Shown piece after piece: positions 2,452 through 61,806 of a DNA stretch of 64,000 nucleotides. Every line of letters begins with the position of its first letter. Position 1 is the first letter of the stretch. The stretch covers positions 26,693,001-26,757,000 of the forward strand of contig OY540813.1 in the NCBI GenBank assembly GCA_961205875.1, written 5' to 3'. The stretch is from Sialis fuliginosa (Eukaryota; Arthropoda; Insecta; Megaloptera; Sialidae). The notes under the pieces were generated by a model. That model was not told the DNA's origin. It was given only the letters and a program-made list of their open reading frames with translations, and made no database searches. Both the position numbers and the translations under genes were made by a program.

Positions 2452-2621
2452 ATAAAATCCATAAGTCACAACAATACGGTACGAGACACAAGTACACGAG
2501 GATCGACTCGCATTTTATTTTATTTTGAATACACGTAATAATATTGATTACGCCATAAGAAATTTAACATTGGGTGAATTAGAAGTATTGTAGTGAAACC
2601 TTTGTACAAATATAAGGGCGT

Positions 2622-2784
2622 GTGATTGGTGCATTTTGAAATGCCGCCATGAAACTAACTAATAAATTTTAAATTAGTCTATAGTGTTTTCGTTTTAGTT
2701 AAAAACAAAGCACTATTGACTAATTTTAAATGTATCAGTTAGTTTCATTTATGGAGGTATATTTATTTCAAAATGCACCAATGA
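2622..2784. mobile_element. Hairpin MITE, ATTGGTGCATTTTGAAAT arms
   Basis: An inverted repeat of about 70 bp per arm. The left arm starts GATTGGTGCATTTTGAAAT (2624) and the right arm ends with ATTTCAAAATGCACCAATGAC apart from one base. A GAAACTAACT block follows in both arms and a short spacer (CGTTTTAGTTAAAAAC) sits at the turn. No reading frame. A non-autonomous element unrelated to the neighbouring hairpin at 2315-2451. Confidence 0.65.
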
Positions 2785-3055
2785 CAAGTCAATATATTTG
2801 TATTTGATGAATATAGGTATGAATGTAAGAATGTAGATATACATATTTTTATTTTTGTGTCGCGTGATCACCAACGCTTTATCGGTGTTGTGAGTGACTG
2901 TGTAAATGTTCCACCTTGTTTCACGCTTTATGCGGTTTCACAGATTTTGCGGTTGAACCACTTTATCCTTCCTAACCAAAGAGTTTTTGTGAAATAGACC
3001 TGTTAATATAAAAACAGATAATATGCTTTAAGTAGGCGAATACTTTAATAAATAA

Positions 3056-3458
3056 AACGGCCAAGTGCGTGTTGGGCACGCACATGATAGGTTTCTGTAG
3101 TTATTATGATTTATAAACAAGAGTTATTTCAATTTTTTTTTATAAACTATTCTAGCTACAGTGTTCGTTATAATTTTCATTGAAAGTACTGACTAAAAGC
3201 TACATTCTGGATTTTTTTATAGATTTTTTGCATCGATAGTTTCGAAAGTAGAAGGGGGGAGGGGACGCTCTGATAACGACATTTAAATGCAAATATATCG
3301 TGACTGAAGGGTTAATAACATTTTTTGTTGCTCAACTTCACTTACCTCACTCAATGTGGTAAGTGAAAAAAATTTGTGTACACTTTTCAGTCTATGGGAA
3401 GGGGTCCAAAATAATTTTGACAATGTTCGTTATAATTTTCAGTGAAAGTATTAATTAA
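3056..3458 (+). repeat. Dispersed repeat, CGGCCAAGTGCG-type (copy 1)
   Basis: Begins at about 3058 with CGGCCAAGTGCGTGTTGGGC and shares most of its length with the inverted copy at 33233-33735. Shared blocks include GATAGGTT.CTG.AGT, CTACAGTGTTCGTTATAATT, AAATATATCGTGACTGAAGG and ACTTTTCAGTCTATGG. The segment GTTCGTTATAATTTTCAGTG recurs at about 3424, suggesting a local duplication at the 3' end. A GGCCAAGTGCG start with a GACGGACGG tail (seen in copy 2) resembles a repeat type I know from moths and other insects. No protein is encoded. Confidence 0.65.
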
Positions 3459-3619
3459 ATTTTGTATTTAACAATTAAAACTTTTAGTTAAGCTATAATA
3501 CATAAATAAAACAATATTTTAAATGTTAATTTAAAGAAAACAATGGGAAAATAAAACCAGTTTCAGGCATTAAATAACCCTTATACTTAAAAAAAACGTT
3601 ATAAATATAATTTGTTCGA

Positions 3620-3674
3620 ATGTGGCCGCGGACCGCACAAAAGGACACGGCGGGCAGCGGGTTGGCCAGCCCTG
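3620..3674. repeat. hAT-type terminal fragment
   Basis: GC-rich sequence ending in GGTTGGCCAGCCCTG at 3674, which matches the familiar right end of many hAT elements (inverted end CAGGGCTGGCCAACC). The partner left end is not visible upstream, so this is a truncated end. It lies about 100 bp before the repeat starting at 3775. Confidence 0.5.
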
Positions 3675-3774: not shown

Positions 3775-4495
3775 AAAAAACATCTGCTAAGTAAAGTGCT
3801 TTCTCGTGCTAAATTCACCAAAAATAGTTAATTATTAAAAAAAATTAAATAAAAACCGATAAAGTGATCAAATAAATTGCTTAGCATTGGCTAACCATTT
3901 AATTTTTATACAATTTTACTAAAAAATATTAGTTCGAATTTTTTCCTTATGACGCACCTGATCTTTTTCCGTATATTTTTAATTTTTTGACAATTTCAAT
4001 TAAATCTAAATTTATGCAAACGTCAAAATGGCATTTAATATGTCAAAGTAAACATCAATTTAAAAAAAAAACACGATTTTTTCAAGCAAATTGAGATAAA
4101 TCTTTGTAAGAAAATATTTTATAACAAACGTTGTAGATTAATATTATACAAAATTGAATGCTCAACAAAAAAGATTCCATAAAATTTTCACGTAACATGT
4201 GTCGTTCTTGAGATATCTTGAAAAAATAAATATTTTCGGATGTCACTTCTCCTTACACACGATTTTGATGATTTTGAAACGGGACTATCCTCAAACTAGA
4301 TCCCAACCATTCAACCAAGTTCAGTGGTTCATGAGTTTCGCATGTGACAAGGATTCAGAGGACAGACACACACACATACATACAGACAGACAGACACGGA
4401 ACGGAAAAAGTGTTTATCTTGACCTGAAACAGAAAGATCAATTTAAAATTTTGAAATCGGAGAACATTTTTTTTGTCTCATTCTAAAACGATCAC
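3775..4495 (+). repeat. Dispersed repeat of about 720 bp (copy 1)
   Basis: Matches 56505-57245 in the same orientation along its length. Anchor blocks are AAAAACATCTGC, CTCGTGCT.AATT.ACCAAA, ACTAAAAAATATTAGTTCGAA, the run CTTGAGATATCTTGAAAAAA, AAGGATTCAG followed by ACAGAC repeats, and AGAAAGATCAATTTAAAATT near the 3' end. The open frame 4199-4486 is an accidental reading of the repeat. The ACAGACAGAC motif followed by a conserved 3' block resembles tails of insect non-LTR elements, but I see no reverse transcriptase. A third piece of the 3' block lies at 26073-26130. Confidence 0.7.
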
Positions 4496-4639
4496 ATACG
4501 AGTGCATAAAATCTAGTTTTTTAGATCACATATTTTTTGTTTCAATATATGTACAATACAGATAACATGTGCTAATAGAATTCCAACTGACATGCGTATA
4601 TGTATCCGTATTAAATATTCCCCCCAACCCCCTCTGCCT

Positions 4640-6597: not shown

Positions 6598-7985
6598 ATG
6601 AAATTATTTCGGATACGAATTTTTATTGCTTACATTAGTATTTGTTTTATCCGTAGTTTGCGTTTCAAGGCTCGGGCAAAATTTAATTATTTCGGATACG
6701 GAAGGGATAAATGGGTAACCAAAAATTGTTTTAATTCAATTTTGGCGAGTAGCAAGGTATGTAAAGTACAAGGTAGTCTCAGTAGCTCGGCAGAGAAAGA
6801 CATATGTCTTCTGGAGTGCCCAAATGTGGAGAAGGGGAATGATACGCTCAATCGTAACCAAAATACGTCATCTGGGTTGCCCAAGCTAATTGGTCAAAAG
6901 CTACTGAGGCAGCAATATGTGTATTTACTAACCTTGGGCGAGTAGAGTATGAAATTTAAGGAATTAAACAAATTTAAAAAAATCTTAAAAATATTTTCAA
7001 AATTATAATATAGATACTCCTAGTATACAATTATGTTGCTACTATAAACTATAAACTAATGTGTAAATAATTAATTGGTTCTTGTAACTTTGTTAAATGT
7101 TTAGTTTATGGTACGGGACACTATTATGCAAGGCTCGACATGTACTTGACAATTTTTATGCAACTTGTTTTTATGCATTTAAAAAACATTTATGAACAAT
7201 TTTCTGAAGTTTCATGAAAAACTATTCATTTTGCCTATTATCCGTTCCATACATCGGTATCTTAAAGAGAACACGAAAAATTTTGTGACAGTCATATCTA
7301 CCTGACCACGTACCTTAAAGTACACAAGTTAGATATCATTTGAAAGGCCTTGGCTTGGATTTGGGATTTATAATCCATATTTCCTATAATAGACATGATG
7401 CCTAATTTTTAAAAACTATTTTATGATGATTTTACGTGTCTCCTATTTCCAAAAAAAATTTTATTTCTGCAGAAAATAAAGGTTTAATCACTAAAATTGA
7501 CTCTAATTTTGAATTTGACGCTAAAACGCTCGCAGATGTCATGGCGCATTTTTGACGTCACGCCTATGTAAAAACACCTTGTCAACAATAACAAATCCTT
7601 GTTCCAACGTTTCTCGGTTTTAGTTTTGGTAACACAAAACTGAGCAAATTGATAATTTAAAACTACAAAATAATTTATAAACAGTGCAGATATTAATAAA
7701 ACAAAAATGATGTTTACTTAGCCGTGACATCATCCACTCTAATTGGTGTTTTATCTAATATGGCGAATTTCTGTATTTTGTGTTTTTATTTTAACAAAAA
7801 TTATATTAATCTCGCTTTTAAATTAAAAAAATACATTTTTTATAATCTTTTTAACCTATTTCATTGTTTAAAATCATAATTTCAGTGATTCTTTGTTACT
7901 GGCATCATGCCTATTGTATTTTTTTAATTAATTTACGCTCTCTTTCAGTCACGTACGTTGCTAATCCTTAATTATCACAATTCCA
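6598..7985. other. Stretch without recognised gene
   Basis: An open frame at 6598-6945 (115 codons) starts MKLFRIRIFIAY and lies in less AT-rich sequence that contains repeated phrases (ATTTCGGATACG twice, GGCGAGTAG twice, GCCCAA twice). It has no recognisable domain, and chance frames of this size are plausible across 64 kb. At 7553-7560 there is a TGACGTCA palindrome (CRE-like). The remainder is AT-rich filler. Confidence 0.45.
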
Positions 7986-10033: not shown

Positions 10034-11141
10034 CAAATCGAATACAGTATGTTTTACTTACTCGACTAACATTGAAAGGGGGAACATCACTGTGATGCAT
10101 AAAAAATCGATTTTTTATAATATTTTCTTATTCAAAAATGTCCAAAAAATATCAGGTAAAAATATTAAAAACTGACGAAGATACAGTAAGTGAAAAATCA
10201 AAATTTTTGATAAATTAAATATGTTCTTAAACTTTCAATCGCGTTTTTCTCGAAACGGTATTTTCAAACTCAAGGAATCATAGTCCGATTTGTTTTAACG
10301 AAAATTTTCGTAATCGCAGTAACTAAGTCTTTGCGTAGCCGATTTTTAAAAATTTTTAAAATTACTATTTTTTAGGTGACTTAAATGAACAATAATTATT
10401 AAAAAATATGTTTTTTTTGTTAAGTGCTACTATTTAATTAAAAAATAAATAAATAAACGGCTATCAATAACTACATTCATACAGATTAATAATGCTGTGT
10501 AATTTTTATTAAAATTTTGTCTAAACATAGTTCGAATATCCTTAATAACATAAATATCTTTCCCTCAATTCAAAAATAATTAATTAATCAAAAAAAATAT
10601 ATATATAATAGTGTTAGCCTTTATTTTATATTTTCTTGTGCTTATTATCAAAAGATTAATTTATATTAATTTGAAAAATAGTAAAATTACACAATACATT
10701 TTTATGACTTATACATATACAATAAACTATTGCCTAATTTGTAAAAAAATAATATGAAAAATATCTAAACACAATATTAACAATATTATATTATAATATT
10801 AAAAATGATATATTTAAATAAAATCGGATAAAATATGAATTGTGAAAGGTATCTTTGGTCAAATGGAAAAGATAATGTTTTATATAGCTGTAATAGCTTG
10901 GGGCCAGTTATTCAAAAGACCCTCCGAAAAATTAAATCATGTATGAAATATTTTCAGACTCTTTTCTGACGACAGTATCAATCATTCTTCTTATGTAGAA
11001 CACCCGTGCATGCTGGATTCTTTTTATATTTTAGAAAAATATTTTTAGCGCTGAAAGTAACACGACTTTTTCATTTCACATGGAATAGTTTTTATAGTTT
11101 TATGTTGTTAAAATTGTTGAATTTATTTTCTTTTTTATTCA
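10034..11141. other. AT-rich stretch with decayed repeat sequence
   Basis: No gene recognised. 10225-10375 (TTTCTCGAAACGGT and following) has the phrasing of insect transposon tails. The rest is AT-rich, with no good splice sites flanking an open frame. Confidence 0.5.
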
Positions 11142-11325
11142 GGGAGTAAACTGTGAGTTAAATTTTATGAAAAATTACAATTCCTAAATAAAAATTTAGT
11201 ATCCGCATTACAATAATTTATTGTATTTTTAAATAAAAGATTATAAATTTTATAATAAATCTGTAAATTATTGAAATTATTTAGGAATTGTAATTTTTCT
11301 TAAAATTTGAGTCCCAGTTTTCTCC
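11142..11325. mobile_element. Hairpin MITE family B (copy 1)
   Basis: Arms of about 55 bp (11142-11198 and about 11270-11325) are inverted copies; both carry GAAAAATTACAATTCCTAAA-type sequence and end toward AAACTGGGACT or the variant AAACTGTGAGT. A second member lies at 42070-42221 with the same arm core and the same TGGGACTCAAAT end. No reading frame. Confidence 0.7.
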
Positions 11326-11497
11326 GTGTACTTATTCATTATCGTTTGGAAAAGTGGAGCTATCCGGTTTTGTTTATACTCTTCATTTAAATGCAAATAT
11401 CACACACACATTGATATTTGCGCTTGAGGCGGTTTATTAATTACATATTTATACTAATCAAAAATATTTAATTTGTTCGAAATAATGTTTATATTAA

Positions 11498-14639: not shown

Positions 14640-15890
14640 TCTATCAACTCCGTCTTTCGCATTTATATATATAGTATATGTATATATAATATATATTGAG
14701 ATTTTATGTCAATTACAATTTATATATCTAATATACTTAATTGTAATCAAAAGATATTTGATGAAAAAACTCACTTTTTGCCATTTTTTTCATTAAAAAA
14801 ATATCTGCCTTGGGAACCACGGTACTTTCTTATACGTAATCCTAACAGTGAATAATATACGTGATTCTTATTTCATTAAAACATTTCTGACAAACTAACA
14901 AGTTAGAATAAAATGAATAATATATATTAATAATAATATTATTCTCTACATTATATAACAAATGATTTTTTTAACGTAATAACTGAAAACGAGTGTTTAC
15001 TCTTGTAAATTTTTGAATTTTCGAATTATTTTTGAAGTAAGAAAAAAATGTTTTAGATAAAAAATGTCGAGTATGTTATTATCTATAATTTATTCCCCAT
15101 ACATTTTTTTCCAACATTTATGATTTAGCCAGAAAGAATTTTTTTATGTAATTATTTAGATTCACCTACACTGTTCACTCTCAGTACGTATAAGAAAGTC
15201 CCATGGTACCTATGACAAACACACACACTGTTCAATCTCTGTAATACGTATAAGAAAGTCCCATGGCAGATATTTCTCCTCTGTTATGAACCATTTGAAT
15301 TATAATACATTTTTTCTTCAAAAATTCGTTTTTACGAAAAAATAAATAATAGAACATAAATTATAGATATTGATATTACCCACAATTTTCAACTTGACCA
15401 TTTTTCTCTATTTCGCACTGTTTCAGAGTAATTCAAAAAATTCAAAAATCGACGTAGGTAAACATCCGTATCCGGTTGAAAGATCGTTTTCAAAAATAGG
15501 ACGTTTTCTTCCCAGACAAAAATTAATCTTAAATATAAAATTTCACCCTTCTACGATTTGTCATATTTGAGTTACAGTGCTTACAGACAGATAGACACAC
15601 AGACATCATAGCAAAAATAGTCAGAATGGATTAAGGGAAGGTCAAAATGGATAATTCCATCAAAATCCGGATTTCGAAAAAAATCGGCTTTACTATACTT
15701 ACTTATACTATAATTTACTATACATATGTATATTTCATATACATGGTATAAGAAAGTAAAAACGCCAAGTAGATTTGAGCCGGTATAAATATAAATATTT
15801 TTAGTTCCAGGAATTGATTTGAGATTGTACTGGTTATTTTCGGAGAGAGATAAGGAGACGAATTTTGGTGACTAAACCTTACGTCCGATC
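14640..15890. mobile_element. Repeat interrupted by a composite TIR element
   Basis: The outer parts (about 14690-14790 and 15765-15880) match a single continuous stretch at 62097-62355. About 970 bp here is therefore extra, and 62.1 kb looks like an empty site. The extra DNA has ACTTTCTTATAC at 14824-14835 and its exact complement GTATAAGAAAGT at 15746-15757, close to the junctions. GTATAAGAAAGTCCCATGG also appears at 15188 and 15248, each preceded by CACTGTTCA, a 60-bp direct duplication. 15300-15680 includes ACAGACAGATAGACACACAG and looks like a decayed repeat tail. No transposase frame. Confidence 0.55.
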
Positions 15891-16260: not shown

Positions 16261-16296
16261 ATTAATCTAGTTTGTTTTCGGTGTAGATGGTATATA

Positions 16297-17473
16297 CAGG
16301 GTGATTCAGCACTGTCGTGCCAAACTTGAACGGTACATCGAGAAAAATATTTTAAGCAAAAAACATTGTATAAACATGTGTCCGGAAATTTGTCATGAGG
16401 GGGCTACAGCCCTCTAAAGATTTTACTCAAAATTAGTTTTTATTTAATATCTTGAGAACCTATTGTGCCATAGTTATGAAATTTGCTACAGGGTTTAGTA
16501 TTAATAAGTGTTATATATATCCAGTAACAACCAATAGTAATTTTGACCAGGGTTGTATGGGCCCAGGAGGCCCGACGATTTTTACCCAGTATTTTTTGTT
16601 CTTCAATTTTTTCCTGAGTTAAAAATTTGAATAAGACTGTATGAGACAAAATACACAAAAATATACTTTGCTCATTTATCATAGGATAAACCGTTTACGA
16701 GTAATAACGATGCAAAAGAAAGCATGCAGAATTTTACTTAATACGGATGCTTCAAATTAAACAAAATAAATTTATATTTCTGTTCTTTGATTAAAGGTAA
16801 GAAAAAAGTTCATGTACATATATCACCTAATACGTGTCCTACTAGACCTATAGCCAGTTCTATTAATGTTGCAAGTAATTTACTAACATAACTAGAAAGC
16901 GATACTTAAAATGGCTATTTGTTGGTAAGGATGAATTTTTGGAGGTATATTTTTATTATCTTTTTGTCTTATTTTTTATCATAGAACAAGAATATAAAAA
17001 TATTTATTGTAATTTGAAGCATCCGTATTAAGTAAAATTCTGCATCCTTTCTTTTGCATCCATATTTCTCGTAAACGGTTTATCCTATGATAAATGAGCA
17101 AAGTATATTTTTGTGTACTTTGTGCCATACAATCTTATTCAAATGTTTAATTCAGGAAAAAATTAAAGAACAAAAAAATACTAGATAAAAATCGATGGGC
17201 CCACTGGCCCCATACAGCCCTGATCTAAATTATAATTGTTCAATACTGGAAATCGATAACACTTATTAATACTAAACCCTGTATCAAATTTCATAACTTT
17301 AGCACAATGGGGTCTCCAGATATTAAATAAAAACTAATTTTGAATAAAATCTTTGGAGGTCTGTAGCCCCCTTACGAAAAATTTCCGGACACATGTTCAT
17401 ATAATGTTTTTAGCTTAAAATATGTCTCTTAATTTACTGTTCAAGTTTGGCACGACAGCACTGAATCATCCTG
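16297..17473. mobile_element. 1.18-kb foldback element, family C (copy 1)
   Basis: Flanked by TA at 16295-16296 and 17474-17475. The termini are CAGGGTGATTCAGCACTGTC and, inverted, CAGGATGATTCAGTGCTGTC. The left arm (16297 to about 16793) and right arm (about 16980-17473) are near-complete inverted copies of roughly 495 bp, leaving a loop of about 186 bp. Shared arm landmarks include GGACACATGT, TTAGTATTAATAAGTGTTAT, GGGCCC and TTTATCATAGGATAAACCGT. No transposase is encoded. Any transcript crossing it would form a long hairpin. A second, disrupted copy is at 25834-26740. Confidence 0.85.
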
Positions 17474-17514
17474 TACATACCTATATGTACACTAGGGTGT
17501 TTTTTTAATTTTTA

Positions 17515-25833: not shown

Positions 25834-26019
25834 CAGGATTAGTCATATCAGGTGAACAAACTTGAACAGTTTATCTAGAAAAAATTTCAAGTAAAAAAGT
25901 TCATATAAACATGACTGTGTCCAGAAATTCTTCGCGAGAGATCTACAGACTCAAATATTTTGTCTAAAATTAGTTTTTATTTAAATATTTTGAGAACCCA
26001 TTGTGATACAGTTATGAAA

Positions 26020-26072
26020 TTTTATAATCGGTTTAGTATTAAACACGTATTAATACTAAACCGATTATAAAA
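26020..26072. repeat. Perfect 22-bp hairpin inside foldback copy 2
   Basis: The 22-base left arm (26020-26041, core ATAATCGGTTTAGTATTA) is the exact inverted copy of 26051-26072, with a 9-base loop. In copy 1 the equivalent sequence occurs once per arm some hundreds of bases apart. Here the two arms are almost joined, as expected of a deletion or template switch at this spot. Confidence 0.75.
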
Positions 26073-26130: not shown

Positions 26131-26740
26131 CTAAGCTTTTCATATTTTTGATAATAAAACAACTCATAATAAAGATACAACGCATTTTATTCATTATTGA
26201 ATAAAAATCACAATTGCCATGGAAAATTAAAATATTTACTCGAGTGCAATATTAAAAAGTCAAGTAAGCTTTGGAAAAAAGAATGGTTGATGTTTAAAAT
26301 TTTTATATTTGTTAAAATTCGTTGCTTATTTTGTTAATGTATTAAAGCAATGCTGGTTTTAGGGAGGGGGGCTGGGCGACCGTCGGGGTTCCAATACAGA
26401 AGGGGCGGCGGACGGCCACATGGAGAAAAACTTAGCTTGAATTTTAGTAGATTTTTTAGGAAAAAAATTAAGATAATAAAAAAAAAGATATAACTTAAAG
26501 GGCCCACTGGCCCCATATATCCCTGGTTTAAATAATTATTGGTTTACTGGAAATCGATAACACGTATAATACTAAACCAGGTATCAAATTTAAGTACTGT
26601 ATCACAATAGATTCTCAAAATATTAAATAAAAACTAATTTGAGACAAAATCTTTGAGAATCTGAAGCTCCCTCACAAAGAGTTTCCGGACACATGTTTAT
26701 ATGAACTTTTTTGCTTGAATTTTTTTCTTAATAAACTGTT

Positions 26741-38339: not shown

Positions 38340-38525
38340 TTAAGCCTTAGCACTTTACAGAAACGGTCTCCGTCACCGCTTCGACCTTGCAAATCTGTTA
38401 TATGCGATTCAATGTAAAAGTGTCATGCTAGCTGCGTCGAAACGGCGTTGCATTTTGACGCAGCTAACATGTAATGGATTTGCAAGATCGAAGCGGTGAC
38501 GGAAACCGTTTTTAAAGTGTATTGA
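38340..38525. mobile_element. Foldback MITE family D (copy 1)
   Basis: The ends carry CACTTTACAGAAACGGTCTC then CGTCACCGCTTCGACCTTGC on the left, and inverted CACTTTAAAAACGGTTTC then CGTCACCGCTTCGATCTTGC on the right. A central hairpin, GCTAGCTGCGTCGAAACGGC against GACGCAGCTAACATG, sits between. TTAA occurs at both outer edges (38340-38343 and about 38525). A second member is at 61535-61806. Non-coding. Confidence 0.75.
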
Positions 38526-42069: not shown

Positions 42070-42221
42070 AACACTGGGACTCAAATAAAAAAAATTACAA
42101 TTTCTAAATAAAAATTTACAATCCGTATTGCAATAACTTACATTGTATTTTTTTTTATTGTATTTTTTATTGTAAATTTTTATTCAGGAATTGTAATTTT
42201 TCCTATTTGTAATCCCAGTTT
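42070..42221. mobile_element. Hairpin MITE family B (copy 2)
   Basis: Left arm ACTGGGACTCAAATAAAA then AAATTACAATTTCTAAATAA; right arm the inverted GGAATTGTAATTTTTC and AATCCCAGTTTT. Same arms as the copy at 11142-11325. Non-coding, about 150 bp. Confidence 0.7.
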
Positions 42222-42805
42222 TATGTGTTATTTCATTTGGTCTATTTATGATATCCAAATAATATAGGTACTCTAAGGCCATTGTATTATATGAAAGAAT
42301 TCAATATAAAAACTTACTATCCCAACCCTTAAAATCTATAAAAGTTTTTCGTGTATTCAACAATAAAACCTACTAAACATAACATCACAGTGGGGAATAA
42401 GCAAATAATGAAAATAAAAAATAAACAAAAAGCAATTTCCAAACAATCAATCTATCAGTACATTTCAATCATTTGAAATCAATAAAAGTCAGCCACAATA
42501 AAAAAATAATGTGAAAACAAGCAAATCTTTTCAATCATACCAGCGCGAGCGGCTGCTTTTGTAAACGTCCATCACGTGACACCTGTATAACGTTTGCACA
42601 ATTAGATCCGTCGTTGCTGCACGGAGGAGGGGGTTGTCTCTTTATCCTTTTAAATCATACATTGTATGATTGTGAATATGTCAACCCTAGAACAGGGTTG
42701 GTTTAGAATATTTTTTAAATATCCGTACTGAAATCGGGAAAAATGTGTCTGTTTGTTGGCCACATAGTCCAGGTTGTCTAGGCTAACAAGTACCTAAAAT
42801 ATGAA
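42222..42805. promoter_or_regulatory. Unique stretch with GC-richer E-box block
   Basis: 42540-42640 is GC-richer and non-repetitive. It has the perfect 8-bp palindrome TCACGTGA (42572-42579, bHLH-ZIP E-box), immediately followed by CACCTG (42580-42585, Snail/bHLH type), then GTTTGCACAATTAG. A candidate regulatory block; the rest of the stretch is AT-rich with nothing recognised. Confidence 0.25.
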
Positions 42806-44190
42806 TTTTTAGGTACAGTTTTGCTATTGCAGGATTTGTTACAAATGTGGTTTAGAATAATACTCTAAGTTTGCTCCGATTTTGGTTGTCCGCGTTACGG
42901 GTAAACCATGGTTCAATTGCAAAATTCTGATTTTTGCTAAATAGTGGTCGAAATCTAGTCTAAAATCTACAAGAAAAAGTTTTAAATAAACATTGTTCGC
43001 TATAAAATTTCCTACAACCTCTGTTTTAAAAAAATTTAAAAATTCATTTGTTTATCCGCTACGCTGAAAAAATAGCAGAAACACGCTGTTTAAAGTTGTA
43101 ATAACTATTAAAGCTTAACGTTTTTTAAGTTGATACCCCTGGAAAATAAACATTTTGTAGTATAGAACATTCACTGAAAATTTGCACCTGATAACTTCAA
43201 TTTTTATTCTTTTATTAAATTGTTAATAATGGAATCATCCTTGTCTTTGATTAACAATAAAAGTTTTTGTAGAACCTTTATTTTTGTATAACTGTTTGTA
43301 TGTGTTCCCAAAGACTTATATAATCAATTGCCACCATAAAAATGTCAATACTTCAATTCTTCGGAAAATGGTTACACAAAAATCTTATTCTTAAGTTTTT
43401 TTATTATAAACCAATTCAATTGTTTCACAGAACCAGCAATATTAAAAATGATAATAGCAAAGAACCTGTTCTGAAAAATTATTAATCTATTGGTGAAAAC
43501 CGCATTAAAATCGGTTCAGTAGTTTTCGAGATTAGCGGTAAAAGATACTAAAATAAGTTTCCTTTAAAGTAGGATAGAGTTAATTAATTTATAAACAATC
43601 AATTTTGCATTAAATAAATAAGATTTTCGTGCTACTATTTGCCAAAGAATTGACTAATTTTACTTTTTTATGATGACAATCGATTATATAAGTCTTTGAG
43701 ATATACATATACTAACAGTTTTACAAAAAACTTTTATTGTTAATCAAAGACAAGAATGATTCCAGTATTAATTATTTCATAAAACAATAACAATTGAAGT
43801 TATCAGGTCCAAATTTTCAGTAATATTCTGTACTACAAAATGTTTATTTTCCAAGGGTATCAACTTAAAAACCGTTAAGCTTTATTAGTTATTACAGCTT
43901 TAAAAAAGCCTGTTATCAGCATTTTTTTCAGCGTCGCGGATAAACAAATGATTTTTTTTTCAAAATGGAGGTTGTAGGGAATTTTGTAATGAATAACTTT
44001 TATTTGAAACTTTTTTTGTATAATACTTATTTAGACCGCTATTTAGCAAAAAACAGAAAATCTGAAGAATTTGGCAATTGAACCATGGCTTACCCCTGAC
44101 ACGTACAACCAAAATCGGGGCAAACTTAGGGTATTATTCTAAACCACATTTGTAACAAATCCTGTAAGTAGCAAAACTGTACCTAAAAAC
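42806..44190. mobile_element. 1.38-kb foldback element, family E
   Basis: The left arm (42806 to about 43390) and right arm (about 43620-44190) are inverted copies of roughly 570-585 bp around a loop of about 230 bp. The outer ends read TTTTTAGGTACAGTTTTGCT in both arms; other landmarks are GGATTTGTTACAAATGTGGT, GATTTTGGTTGT, AACCATGG, AGTTGATACCC and CTTTGATTAACAATAAAAG. The loop holds a LINE-tail-like phrase at 43491-43538 (AAAACCGCATTAAAATCGGT then TCAGTAGTTTTCGAGATTAG). No coding frame. Target duplication not resolved. Confidence 0.8.
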
Positions 44191-54026: not shown

Positions 54027-54955
54027 GATCGAAAATGGCGTGAAGAAATTTCGAATTGTGTAACTATAATAACTATAATCTAACTTATACATTTTGTTTA
54101 CATTTTGTACTATTTACTTTTAATTGAAACGTTCTCAATTATAATTTATTTTTTTCATTTCTTACAATTAGTGAGAATAATTTACTTTCTCACGGTAAAA
54201 CAGTTATTTTTATGCAATCGAAGACGGTAAGCATATTTCTTTATCGATTTAGCACCCCATACGAGTTGCGCTTGAGGCAAATATCTCATTTTCTTTTTTC
54301 TGAAGTGAGAGTCGATTCTTTTATTTGCAGTCCTCTTTATGATAATCCGTTCTATGCATGAAAGTGGATTTCTACCGTAGATGTAAAAATAAGGGAGTCA
54401 TATTCGTATTCATAGTTTACACATTAAGTATACCTATATATGTATTCCCTGTCTATTTTTAATCATTTTATTCATTTCTATGTTTTTATTTTGGTCTTTC
54501 TTCTTATATTAAAGTGGATTTCCCTGCATTACACATACAAAAATTTATTTGCATGCATGAAAAAATATCAAATGTCCGATATTATAAAGGAGCTAATAAA
54601 TATTTGTTAGCTAACAAGCACTATATAATATAATATATTGATTATATGTGATATTATCTATGAATTTGTTAGTTGTTAATTTACACATCTACCTGATTCA
54701 TACGTATTGTTCACTTGATAAACAATACTTCGATTTCCTATAAATAAAGTACATTCTTTGTAATGTAGTCATGTATGCAACTATTAATAAATGATTTCAA
54801 ATCCAATAAAACGTTTAAATGATGTTTCAAACACGTTATAATTGTTTAAATATAGAATTTTAAATTTTTGTCGTACGAAAAATTTCAATGTTTTTTTTTT
54901 AATCAACTTCATTTTTAGTTCTGAACCTACATTCGTGTGTTAGATGACATATGTA
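54027..54955. other. AT-rich stretch without recognised content
   Basis: No exon, RNA gene or element end recognised. Confidence 0.5.
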
Positions 54956-55149
54956 CTTACAAGGGGAGATCATATCTAGGGAAGTTGGGATTTTAGTCAG
55001 CTTTGGAGAGGTGAATCTAGACCAAAAATAAGGAGACACGTGTTCGAGAACTCATCTGGGCAGCCCTTATTAGTAAAGATATTAAATTTTGAAAATTGGT
55101 ATATTTCCTTAAGCTCTTATGTACTGTAATAAGCATCTACGTTAACAAT

Positions 55150-55222
55150 CCTTCAATGGCTGTGTGTGTAGAGCGCCGGCTTATGATCCAAAGAACACAG
55201 GTTCGAATCCCGTACCCTGTAC
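55150..55222 (+). ncRNA. tRNA-like Pol III unit, left arm
   Basis: TGGCTGTGTGTGTAGAGC (from 55157) aligns base for base with the D arm of a tRNA (GGCT…GAGC stem). CACAGGTTCGAATCCCGT (55196-55213) gives a T arm with the exact B-box GGTTCGAATCC. A and B boxes are about 40 bp apart and TTTTT follows near 55231, a possible Pol III stop. However, the anticodon stem (around CCGGCTTATGATCC) and the acceptor stem (…ACCCTGT) do not pair. It is therefore a tRNA-derived SINE head, tRNA pseudogene or other Pol III transcript, not a working tRNA. Confidence 0.6.
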
Positions 55223-55921
55223 AAAATAATTTTTATTTTCAATTGTTTCTTACTTTTTATTTTTTTACATATAGATTACCACTACCTGCTATTTATACAT
55301 TATGTTTTTTAGGTAAACATATCGATAATATATGTTTTTTGGGTTGAAATACACATGTAAAGTTTTAAATAGATTATTTTTATTGAAACTACGTATATAA
55401 TTTACCAATTAAAAATATATTTCAATTGTTAAACTTTTAAATATTCCAAACTGTGCATCATTTATTATAAAATAAAAATAATAATATCGTATAATCTTAC
55501 TTGTTTTATTTAATTAAAGAAATATAAATATAAACAAATAACTAGCTGTAAATAATTTAATTATAAGGCCAAAAAGGAAAAAAAATAGAAATAATAATAT
55601 TTTCAATAGTATAGAAGACCGATAATTTATTTGAATGAAAAAAATTAAATAAAAGTAAAAAATAATTTATTTAGGTATCAAATAAATTTGATTAATTGAA
55701 ATATATTTTTAATTGGTAAATTATATACGTAGTTTCAATAAAAATAACATCATAAATAAACTATTTAAAACTTTACATGTGTATTTCAACCCAAAAAACA
55801 TATATGTATTATCGATATGTTTACATAAAAAGCATAATGTATAAATAGCAGGTAGTGGTAATCTATATGTAAAAAAAATAAAAAGTAAGAAACAATTTAA
55901 AATAAAAATAAAAATTATTTT

Positions 55922-55994
55922 TGTACAGGGTACGGGATTCGAACCTGTGTTCTTTGGATCATAAGCCGGCGCTCTACACACACAGCCATTGAAG
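55922..55994 (-). ncRNA. tRNA-like Pol III unit, right arm
   Basis: The same unit as in the left arm, on the minus strand: GGTTCGAATCC is seen as GGATTCGAACC at 55935-55945 and the D-arm part as GCTCTACACACACAGCCA at 55970-55987. It is identical to the left unit over the core. The two units point toward each other, so transcripts from both would be complementary. Confidence 0.6.
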
Positions 55995-56189
55995 GATTGT
56001 TAACGTAGATGCTTATTACAGTACATAAGAGCTTAAGGAAATATACCAATTTTCAAAATTTAATATCTTTACTAATAAGGGCTGCCCAGATGAGTTCTCG
56101 AACACGTGTCTCCTTATTTTTGGTCTAGATTCACCTCTCCAAAGCTGACTAAAATCCCAACTTCCCTAGATATGATCTCCCCTTGTTAG

Positions 56190-56504
56190 TTTACTATTAT
56201 ATGTCAATTTTTTATACAAATTCTAAGATGGGACCTGGTGTTCCTGAGAATGTGAAGATATAATTTTACATGATTTTCTTAGTAACTACTGAACGGTTTT
56301 TATTCCGGGTTTCATTAATGGATAGCTTATGTTTATGTGTATAATTTGTGAATATTTTGAAAAAAATTCATGAAATCTGAAAAACAATTCGTGGTAAACC
56401 GAGCATTTTGGGTGGGCATGTTGAATATTTTAGGTCACTATAAGTTTGTGGATATTGACTTAAAATTTAATTAAAAATGCGTGTAAAAAATGTGTCGCTA
56501 CAAA
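56190..56504. other. Decayed repeat-like stretch
   Basis: TACTGAACGGTTTTTATTCC and GAGCATTTTGGGTGGGCATG have the phrasing of insect LINE tails. It may belong to the repeat that starts to match copy 1 at 56505. No gene. Confidence 0.35.
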
Positions 56505-57245
56505 TAAAAACATCTGCCATGTAAATGCACAGCGCTTCCTCGTGCTGAATTTACCAAAGGTAGTTTTATTCAACAATTTAAATAAAAACCGATAGTGCTT
56601 ATATAAATTGCTTGGAATTGGTTAACTATTTATTTTTGTACAATTTTACTAAAAAATATTAGTTCGAAATTTATTTTTAAAACGCACCTGAATATTTTTT
56701 CATATATTTTTAATTTTTTGACAATTTCAATCTAAATTTAAATTTATGCAAATGTTAAAATGACATTTAAAACGTCAAAATGACATTTAATATGTCCAAG
56801 CAAATATCAATTTAGAAAAACAAAACAAGAATTTTTAAAATAAATTGAGATAAATCTTTGTAACGGAATATTTTACAACAAACGTTGTAGTCCCATATTA
56901 TAGGAAATTTAATGCTCTACAAAAAATATTCTACAAAATTTTAAAGTAACATGTGTCATTCTTGAGATATCTTGAAAAAATAAATATTTTGGGGTGTCAC
57001 CCCTCCCCCTTACACACGATTTTGATGATTTTGAAATGAGACCGTCCTCAAGCCAGACCCAACCATCCGACCAAATTTCAATAATATGGATTCAGTGGTT
57101 CATGAGTTATATGTGTGACAAGGATTCAGGAGACACACGGACACACGGACGTACAGACAAGGAACGAAAAGTGTTTGTCTTGACCTGAAACAGAAAGATC
57201 AATTTAAAATTTTGAAATCGGAGAACATTTTTTTTGTCTCAATCT
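56505..57245 (+). repeat. Dispersed repeat of about 720 bp (copy 2)
   Basis: Matches 3775-4495 in order and orientation, with a local duplication of the GTCAAAATGACATTTAA phrase near 56755-56795 and an extra CCCCTCCCC in the middle. The tail ACGGACACACGGACGTACAG corresponds to the ACAGAC array of copy 1. The open frame 56994-57188 is the repeat itself. No reverse transcriptase seen. Confidence 0.7.
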
Positions 57246-58107
57246 GAAAGGATCGCAAAGCTTCTTGTATCTTCGATATTGTGAGGAAGCAAAATTAATA
57301 TATACCTGTAAATATACCCGATTTTATAAACGATAGGTATTAATTAACAATTCCAGGTAAATTGAAGATATTAACAATACATAATATGTATATCTCCTTA
57401 AGTTATAGACAGATACCAGTTGCTATATTCAAGATTGAGATTGCTAGACGACTTGTTGTTTATTGAAACTGGACAATAATCCCATTAATTTTCTCAATAA
57501 TATTCGGAATTTAATTTTCAGCAGCAAGTACATACTTAAAAACAATATAAAATTCGATTATTGACTTCAAAAACTAAATAACTTTTAATTTATTGAAAAC
57601 TTTCACAATTCTATAAATGATTTTTGTTGTTTGGTGATCAAACTGTCTCTAACAGAGAGAACTGAGTTCGCAGTCGCCCCCTCCCAGCCCCTACCCACGC
57701 GAATACTTAATCATAGAATAATACTTTTCTGATGTTGTTTGCAGATACGATTTCCATCCAGAGTTGTTTGCGTTTCAGGATTTTTATTTCATTTTCTTGA
57801 AAAGTCTGATATTTTGATTGGATGGATGCAAAACATTAAGATAAAATGTTTTGTAGAATTCTTATTTATTTATTTTGTCCTGCTTTCTTATTTTAAGTTA
57901 CGTTGGTGTGTGTATTTAAGGTAGAGTGTTTTTCCTTGATTAGAAAATTTTAATTTTTATAATTGTTTTTACACTTATTTTTCACTTATTAAATTAATTA
58001 GTATAATTTGTTTATATTTTCTTTTTGTATGGTATAAATATTATTATTTTTATATTTTCCAAGAACAATTTAAATTATTCTTTTAAATTCCATTTTAACC
58101 TAACTTA
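57246..58107. other. AT-rich stretch without recognised gene
   Basis: 57655-57705 has a short C-rich patch (GTCGCCCCCTCCCAGCCCCT). The 61-codon frame at 57739 has no recognisable domain. No element ends. Confidence 0.45.
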
Positions 58108-58276: not shown

Positions 58277-58840
58277 TAGAAGACCCGTTCCGGCTTTGCA
58301 CGGGAGTTAATATTTCACACCCTGTCACGTAATTGTTGTTTTAACTGACCCGGCAAACGTTGTTCTGCCCAAAAATAATTTGTTTCAAAATCATTCCATA
58401 AATACATATTTTTGTAAATATCTCGACTCCCGCACCACCTACCGGCTTAATTTTTTGTAAAAATATTTCTTTCCTCGTAACTAACATATTATATTCGGAA
58501 TATGAGCCAAGTCGGTCCATATACACATTCTCGACCCCAGCGCCACCTACCGAGTCCAAAAAAAAGATAAACCTAACGGAGCACCGAACGAACATATGGT
58601 GTAAATATGGCTTCGATAAGTTTAGTGGGTTATTTTTATATGGAAAAGATTCAATTTTTCGAAATATCTTGACCCAACCGCCTCCTTCCGGGTCCAAAAA
58701 ATCTATAAACTTATCGGAGCACCATACGAACATATAGTGTGAATATGGCTTCGATACATCCAATGGTTTAGGCCTGATGAGAACACATACATACTCACCA
58801 ACGTTTTTATATATTGAGATATAAAGAATATTTGAAACAT
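58277..58840. repeat. Retroelement-like tail with in-frame tandem repeats
   Basis: Starts AGACCCGTTCCGGCTTTGCA, a phrase common at insect retroelement ends. Three related units follow: CGACTCCCGCACCACCTACC (58424), CGACCCCAGCGCCACCTACC (58532) and TGACCCAACCGCCTCCTTCC (58670), spaced 108 and 138 bp, both multiples of three. On the minus strand 58341-58763 is open for 140 codons and shows the repeat as SKPYSHYMFVWCSDKFIDFL / SKPYLHHMFVRCSVRFIFFL and GGGWVKIF / GGAGVENVY / GGAGVEIF. No known domain. A repeat read by chance is the likelier explanation; a repeat-derived protein is not excluded. Confidence 0.45.
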
Positions 58841-61534: not shown

Positions 61535-61806
61535 GCCTTGGCACTTTACAGAAAGCAAATTATAACATGTTAGCTGCGTCAAAACGCAGCGCCGTTTCGA
61601 CGCAACTAACATGTCACTTGTATTGAAACACATACAATAGATTTGCAAGGCACTTTACAGAAAGCAAATTATAACATGTTAGCTGCGTCAAAACGCAGCG
61701 CCGTTTCGACGCAGCTAACATGTCACTTGTATTGAAACACATACAATAGATTTGCAAGGTCGAAGCGGTGACGGAGACCGTTTCTATTAAGTGTCAAGGC
61801 TTAAAA
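61535..61806. mobile_element. Foldback MITE family D (copy 2) with tandem duplication
   Basis: The ends carry AAAGCCTTGGCACTTTACAG (left) and, inverted, TAAGCCTTGACACTTAATAG (right). The right arm keeps GGTCGAAGCGGTGACGGAGA, which the left arm lacks: there ACAGAAA jumps straight to GCAAATTATAACATG. A 109-bp unit (61541-61649) is repeated immediately (61650-61758) with one visible difference (CAACTAAC versus CAGCTAAC). Each unit contains a complete central hairpin (TTAGCTGCGTCAAAACGCAG / GACGCAGCTAA). Copy 1 at 38340-38525 has a single unit. Confidence 0.8.

Follow-up and report, generated by a model that had tools for sequence, protein, structure and literature searches.

A 1.2-kb palindrome in the genome of the megalopteran insect Sialis fuliginosa is best explained as a mobile element. 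It lies in a 64,000-nt window (assembly GCA_961205875.1, contig OY540813.1, positions 26,693,001 to 26,757,000 of the forward strand), whose own coordinates are used below. We read it as belonging to a young and recently active family of non-autonomous DNA transposons of the cut-and-paste kind, whose long inverted repeats arose by inward extension and then underwent conversion between the arms, and we give this reading a probability of about 0.8. The palindromes form one dispersed family of about fifty nearly identical copies. A preliminary description, made from the letters of the window, had pictured a pair of facing RNA polymerase III (Pol III) units akin to short interspersed elements (SINEs). 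Instead, the arms are terminal inverted repeats bordered by a 3-bp duplication, and the tRNA-like unit in each looks like an internal passenger that is single in a sister family. The element neatly illustrates a type of mobile DNA already known and is not a new RNA-producing system.

A dispersed family with fixed ends and matched target sites

Comparison with 39 fetched copies fixed the limits of the element, which begins with CAAGGGG and finishes with CCCCTTG. The window copy runs from CAAGGGGAGA to TCTCCCCTTG (54960..56185, 1,226 bp) and is bordered by target-site duplications of TTA, one at 54957..54959 (within CTTA) and one at 56186..56188 (within TTAG), so that each duplication fits inside CTTAG. 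Its terminal inverted repeats of ~470–490 bp occupy 54960..55427 on the plus strand and 55694..56185 on the minus strand. They are separated by an AT-rich loop (55428..55693) in which a stop-to-stop open reading frame (ORF) of 110 amino acids was looked for and none was found; the element is non-coding. Inverted alignment of 54955–55427 with 55694–56190, some flank included, gave 479 identical columns of 513 with 30 gap columns, and a second arm alignment gave 93.96% identity over 497 columns. The outermost 268 nt of both arms are identical without a break. The near-perfect palindrome first reported at 54956..56189 is thus real, with true ends slightly inside those limits. A subterminal motif, GACACGTGT, which alignment shows to be common to the sister family, lies at 55035..55043 (+), with its mirror copy at 56102..56110 (−) placed from the sequence and arm identity.

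The palindrome recurs across the 392-Mb assembly of 20 contigs. A 1,234-nt palindrome query returned 257 first-look candidates, of which 40, window copy included, were scored; all were 96–100% identical, and 39 of the 40 cover essentially the whole query. Genome-wide, 50 forward and 49 reverse matches to the 17-nt end CAAGGGGAGATYATATC (control, 0) define 52 loci by position, 47 of them with exact inverted pairs and 51 with both arms. Among the five loci with one exact end, four keep both arms (C2:12030275, C2:15605489, L090 and L096) and the fifth, L088, has a lone 275-nt arm. One extra copy, L046, stands outside this count because a change in its left end escapes the 17-nt pattern. A focal mini-copy of 331 bp (L089) has a matched TTA duplication and lacks the tRNA-like unit. 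The dispersed copies thus share inverted repeat ends, as DNA transposons do. The preliminary description would have yielded to a finding that each arm was an independent high-copy SINE with unrelated flanks: the copies are indeed dispersed, with mostly unrelated flanks, but what is dispersed is the whole palindrome rather than single SINEs.

Every two-ended copy examined carries matching duplications. All 37 two-ended fetched copies have identical 3-bp duplications (TAA in 20, TTA in 9, TGA in 4, TCA in 3 and ATA in 1), with a C before them in 36 and a G after them in all 37; this count omits L046, whose right end is chimeric, and L052, which is interrupted and represents the same locus as L083. 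The duplications also match in 11 of 11 two-ended extra copies, L088, L090 and L096 being omitted since one exact end was not found, and in the window copy. The total is 49 of 49, with the form C|TNA|G in 45; the exceptions are L024 (ATA), L031 (T before the duplication), L084 (A after it) and L094 (TAG). Empty sites are also visible. L037 and L048 occupy the same position of a satellite, with flanks differing by 14–19% and elements by 19 of 1,231 letters, and two of three unoccupied satellite monomers in the L037 flank contain a single CTAAG. L023 and L050 share an insertion site within a repeat. Matched 3-bp duplications together with empty sites are marks of a cut-and-paste transposon. The satellite around L037 and L048 has a unit of ~123 nt, and the two copies are independent insertions at the same CTAAG.

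The family is young, and its arms exchange sequence. Across 40 aligned copies (39 fetched plus the window), each differs from the majority sequence by 2–15 substitutions, mostly over ~1,230 letters compared. This divergence of 0.2–1.2% indicates youth and bears out the recent origin first proposed. Gene conversion between arms, also part of that proposal, was examined in 38 copies (37 fetched plus the window; L046, L052 and L083–L096 excluded) over 350 outer-arm columns. Of 147 arm-level substitutions, 22, at 8 sites, are matched in both arms of the same copy. When changes were placed independently, 2,000 runs gave a mean of 0.14 matches and at most 3; when right arms were reshuffled among copies, so that subfamilies stayed intact, the mean was 4.25 and the maximum 10, again in 2,000 runs. 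The observed number exceeds both, which argues for conversion between the arms of one copy; such above-chance sharing would be expected of a foldback-type element whose arms convert. Private matched changes number four, in three copies: L038, L041 and L043 (two sites in the last). The window copy has a matched change at arm position 206. Shared variants are present in one arm only in L016, L034 and L048.

The tRNA-like unit and a sister family

Each arm contains the same tRNA-like unit, at 55157..55213 (+) and 55932..55988 (−), the right one equated with the left because both lie in the identical outer 268 nt. As first described, each unit has an exact B-box, GGTTCGAATCC, at 55200..55210 (+) and 55935..55945 (−), followed by a run of five T that is a possible Pol III stop (55230..55234 on the plus strand, 55910..55914 on the minus strand). 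Within the window, at up to one mismatch, the B-box is confined to these two sites, one in each arm; 0.29 would be expected by chance in a window, and 2 of 100 shuffles had as many as two. Both B-boxes are exact in 42 of 48 copies (37 fetched, the window and 10 of the 14 extra copies L083–L096), which says little in so young a family.

Likeness to a tRNA is slight. The D arm had been called recognisable but is weak: ARAGORN found no tRNA in the focal sequence, and Rfam found nothing there at the gathering score or at E≤1. Searched alone, a stretch of 131 nt matched the Rfam tRNA model over positions 8–63, lacking the acceptor stem, at 12.2 bits (threshold 29; E 5.3), one of seven chance-level matches. 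A cloverleaf with an acceptor stem, as a tRNA gene would have, was not found. A combined A-box and B-box pattern allowing up to one mismatch per box had no match in the window, where 60 simulated windows averaged 0.65 matches; the A-box is therefore weak. The element's ends, target duplications and copy structure rule out a tRNA gene. Four or more consecutive T commonly stop Pol III, and the T runs begin 20 and 21 nt past the two B-boxes. Long convergent Pol III transcripts are therefore unlikely, and with them the long double-stranded RNA that had been envisaged from the facing units. RNA transcribed from outside would fold into a ~470-bp hairpin, whereas the units themselves would stop early.

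A sister family came to light through L046. There the end of the right arm is followed by 246 nt that finish CCCCTTG|TAAG and are related to the arm but diverged from it (170 of 228 aligned letters identical): their alignment with the focal arm scores 142.9, whereas 200 shuffles reached no more than 99.7. L046 is a chimeric copy whose right end has given way to a sister-family end (L046:1725–1970); its outer duplication, TAA, still matches. Searched against the genome, the 246-nt stretch gave 734 first-look candidates, of which 40 were scored and 12 loci fetched. The two families share their first end letters and their target. L097 is 821 bp long; its repeats are 170 nt (166 of 170 identical), its TAA duplications match, and its one tRNA-like unit lies immediately interior to the left repeat. 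L098 shares this layout, with a TTA duplication, and L105 aligns with L097 over its full length. In these three complete, unit-bearing copies the repeats measure 153–170 nt, the end-to-end alignment halts just before the unit, and the stretch examined holds one B-box each. Far ends of L100–L104 were not found, and extension of L102, L103, L104 and L106 still yielded no matching far end.

The unit is older than either family, and some copies of both do without it. Colinearity of the focal arm with the left sister end extends from the repeat across the unit into the AT-rich sequence that follows, which implies that the unit predates both families. A unit or its remnant is present in 8 of the 12 fetched sister loci (six with a matching B-box, L101 with a changed one, L104 partly deleted) and absent from four: L099, which has a matched TGA, L100, L107 and L108. 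Among the 41 match rows listed from the genome search, 12 halt at the unit, with identities of 95–97%. Because unit-less sister copies and the mini-copy L089 have also spread, the unit looks like a passenger, unneeded for the movement of such copies. Rfam saw no tRNA at E≤5 in ten sister loci, nor even at E≤10 in the unit of L103. By eye, the block GGTTCGAATC shared between families is no longer than that around GACACGTGT.

Origin of the paired units and the source of transposase

The sister family suggests how the long repeats could have formed. Its single unit sits just inside a ~170-bp repeat, so the two focal units look like the outcome of repeat extension over an internal segment. In the ancestor the repeats would have been shorter, with a single tRNA-like unit between them, perhaps an old SINE or a tRNA pseudogene. 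The repeat of the focal lineage would then have grown inward by inverted copying, through template switching or gap repair from the other end, bringing the unit into both arms, and later conversion between the arms of one copy would keep them alike. The unit probably came to both ends through copying of this older one-sided piece. A transposase made elsewhere would recognise the ends and move the element; such movement, in the manner of miniature inverted-repeat transposable elements (MITEs), by a foreign transposase is well supported. There is about an even chance that this enzyme belongs to the PHIS superfamily, the target being NuwaII-like. Assignment to NuwaII itself is not well supported, and we do not file the element there.

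Several observations weigh against this account. Among the loci examined, no transposase was found within CAAGGGG...CCCCTTG ends; L083, a 3.4-kb copy among the 14 extra loci, carries an insertion but has no ORF longer than 78 amino acids inside the element, judged by ORF length and not by domain search. A different transposase stands beside a focal arm at L088 (C6:4690917-4698917), where two ORF pieces on the minus strand match the piggyBac-type domain DDE_Tnp_1_7 (1609–2346, E 3e-14; 2460–3662, E 4e-48). Repeats of ~470–490 bp opening CAAGGGG depart from the short repeats, mostly starting GG, that NuwaII would lead one to expect. Private changes sit in a single arm 45 times, against four that are matched (in three copies), so conversion is occasional, and few events may account for the matched variants at arm positions 12 and 206, which many copies carry. 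Finally, the polarity is our inference: the focal family is taken to have gained by extension what the sister family might otherwise have lost.

That last point bears on the possibility that full-length arms with two units are the original state and that the sister family lost the one on its right side. This is possible, though doubtful: both arms are kept throughout the focal loci save one, and unit deletions did occur in sister copies, but the short sister repeats that end just before the unit in L097, L098 and L105 count against it, and Galileo offers a case of internal sequence recruited into repeats (PMC3573991, in part). The L088 arrangement could instead mean that a piggyBac-type transposase moves the element, L088 being a decayed autonomous relative with an arm at one end. 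Its lone arm (1001–1275, 98.5% identity) has CTGA in front, and the transposase pieces, in two broken frames, begin 330 nt beyond. We consider this unlikely: it is a single locus with no second end (CCCCTTG) in 8,001 nt, the region is rich in other elements, and the TTAA duplication for which piggyBac is known differs from C|TNA|G, the duplications observed here being the 3-bp TAA, TTA, TGA, TCA, ATA and TAG. The L088 arm may have come to lie beside the transposase by chance, or the locus may be a decayed relative. The same locus also contains an ORF (6648–7481) that matches viral RNA-dependent RNA polymerase below the cut-off (20.8 against 23.9 bits) and may derive from an ancient viral insertion.

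The tRNA-like unit could, on another reading, be functional. Binding of TFIIIC or Pol III could keep chromatin open or yield small RNAs, so that the unit was retained and its doubling aided spread. Its homology and identical placement in two diverged families agree with this, as do the intact B-boxes of most focal copies, yet copies without the unit spread as well, the B-box is, by eye, no better kept between families than the GACACGTGT block, Rfam does not recognise the sister unit as a tRNA, the A-box is not above chance, and youth alone can account for intact boxes; the idea seems improbable. A bolder form of it, a clade of DNA transposons with a working Pol III- or TFIIIC-binding unit inside the ends, doubled in one lineage, where the bound factor might shield copies from silencing or guide their spread, is more improbable still. 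Two tRNA-derived SINEs inserted in opposing directions, or a single SINE locus duplicated as an inverted segment, would explain a tRNA-like unit with an exact B-box in each arm. Such an origin is very hard to credit, because the palindrome recurs at dozens of loci, its ends fixed and bordered by 3-bp duplications, and because no further GGTTCGANTC occurs in 111,291 nt comprising the window and the flanks of 47 copies. A fold-back chimera produced by assembly is harder yet to believe: long inverted repeats are a familiar kind of artefact, but this one stands at about 50 places with different flanks and its own target duplications, and it has an asymmetric loop and arm-specific indels.

Setting in the window and relation to known elements

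Hairpin-like repeats are common in the window, as two other long palindromes and several short ones attest. One long imperfect palindrome (16289–17481, arms about 84%) starts near CAGGGTGATTCAGC; related pieces lie at 25857–26042 and 26455–26740 and, by eye, similar sequence lies beside L097. Another (42806–44189, arms about 82%) starts TTTTTAGGTACAGTTTTGC. The shorter repeats, possibly MITEs, are at 2298–2468, 2605–2802, 11140–11328, 14813–15210, 38351–38519 and 42070–42222. Two copies (80%) of a dispersed repeat occupy 3776–4496 and 56506–57257, the second ~320 nt to the right of the focal palindrome. A 109-nt unit is tandemly duplicated at 61540–61757 (99% identity), and at 58529–58770, where both strands have open frames, a repeat is spaced at 138 nt. 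When 10 ORFs of the window were compared with Pfam, nine had no match and one had a below-cutoff chance match. Two screens against viral contigs gave 5 and 0 stretches. Elsewhere in the genome, ORFs adjoining the extended sister loci include a Mutator-like one (PF20700) near L106 and a DDE_1 one near L102; the Mutator-like and DDE_1 transposase fragments near sister copies are placed at L110:1319–1945 and L111:1204–1662.

About 50 young copies show the arms of a palindromic transposon being kept alike by conversion, with one-arm intermediates, and the family suggests how an internal segment is drawn into inverted repeats. It also cautions that matched inverted tRNA-like units can belong to a DNA transposon and not to a SINE pair. 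Should the unit prove to bind TFIIIC, the family would offer the unusual case of a DNA transposon with a promoter in its ends. Among the titles and abstract beginnings listed, with partial coverage of the literature, we found no report of a tRNA-like unit in the inverted repeats of such an element.

The element combines traits of several known systems. MITEs are short and non-coding, with target duplications and near-identical copies; the focal family is like them in this, but it measures 1.2 kb and is a nearly full palindrome of moderate copy number (52 loci by end pattern). tRNA-derived SINEs also have a B-box and a weak A-box-like stretch, whereas the focal element has fixed inverted ends and a 3-bp duplication rather than retroposon structure, with none of the single head, tail and variable longer duplications of a SINE. 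The transposon Pokey duplicates TTAA, and in the part of its description available the sole mention of tRNA falls in the reference list (PMC3849761). NuwaII elements, of the PHIS superfamily, prefer C|TNA|G and duplicate TNA; those described mostly encode a transposase and a Myb/SANT ORF between repeats of 13–46 bp (PMC4482050, in part). The focal family has the same target and duplication but is non-coding, with far longer repeats. Among the foldback-like elements of Drosophila, as portions of two accounts describe them, non-autonomous copies consist almost wholly of long inverted repeats, up to ~1.2 kb in Galileo (PMC3573991, PMC2775673), whose repeats have recruited internal sequence (PMC3573991) and for which a role of conversion has been proposed (PMC3573991, PMC2775673). 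Long-repeat non-autonomous copies, internal recruitment and conversion unite the focal family with Galileo; its 3-bp duplication, and the tRNA-like unit within the recruited segment, set it apart.
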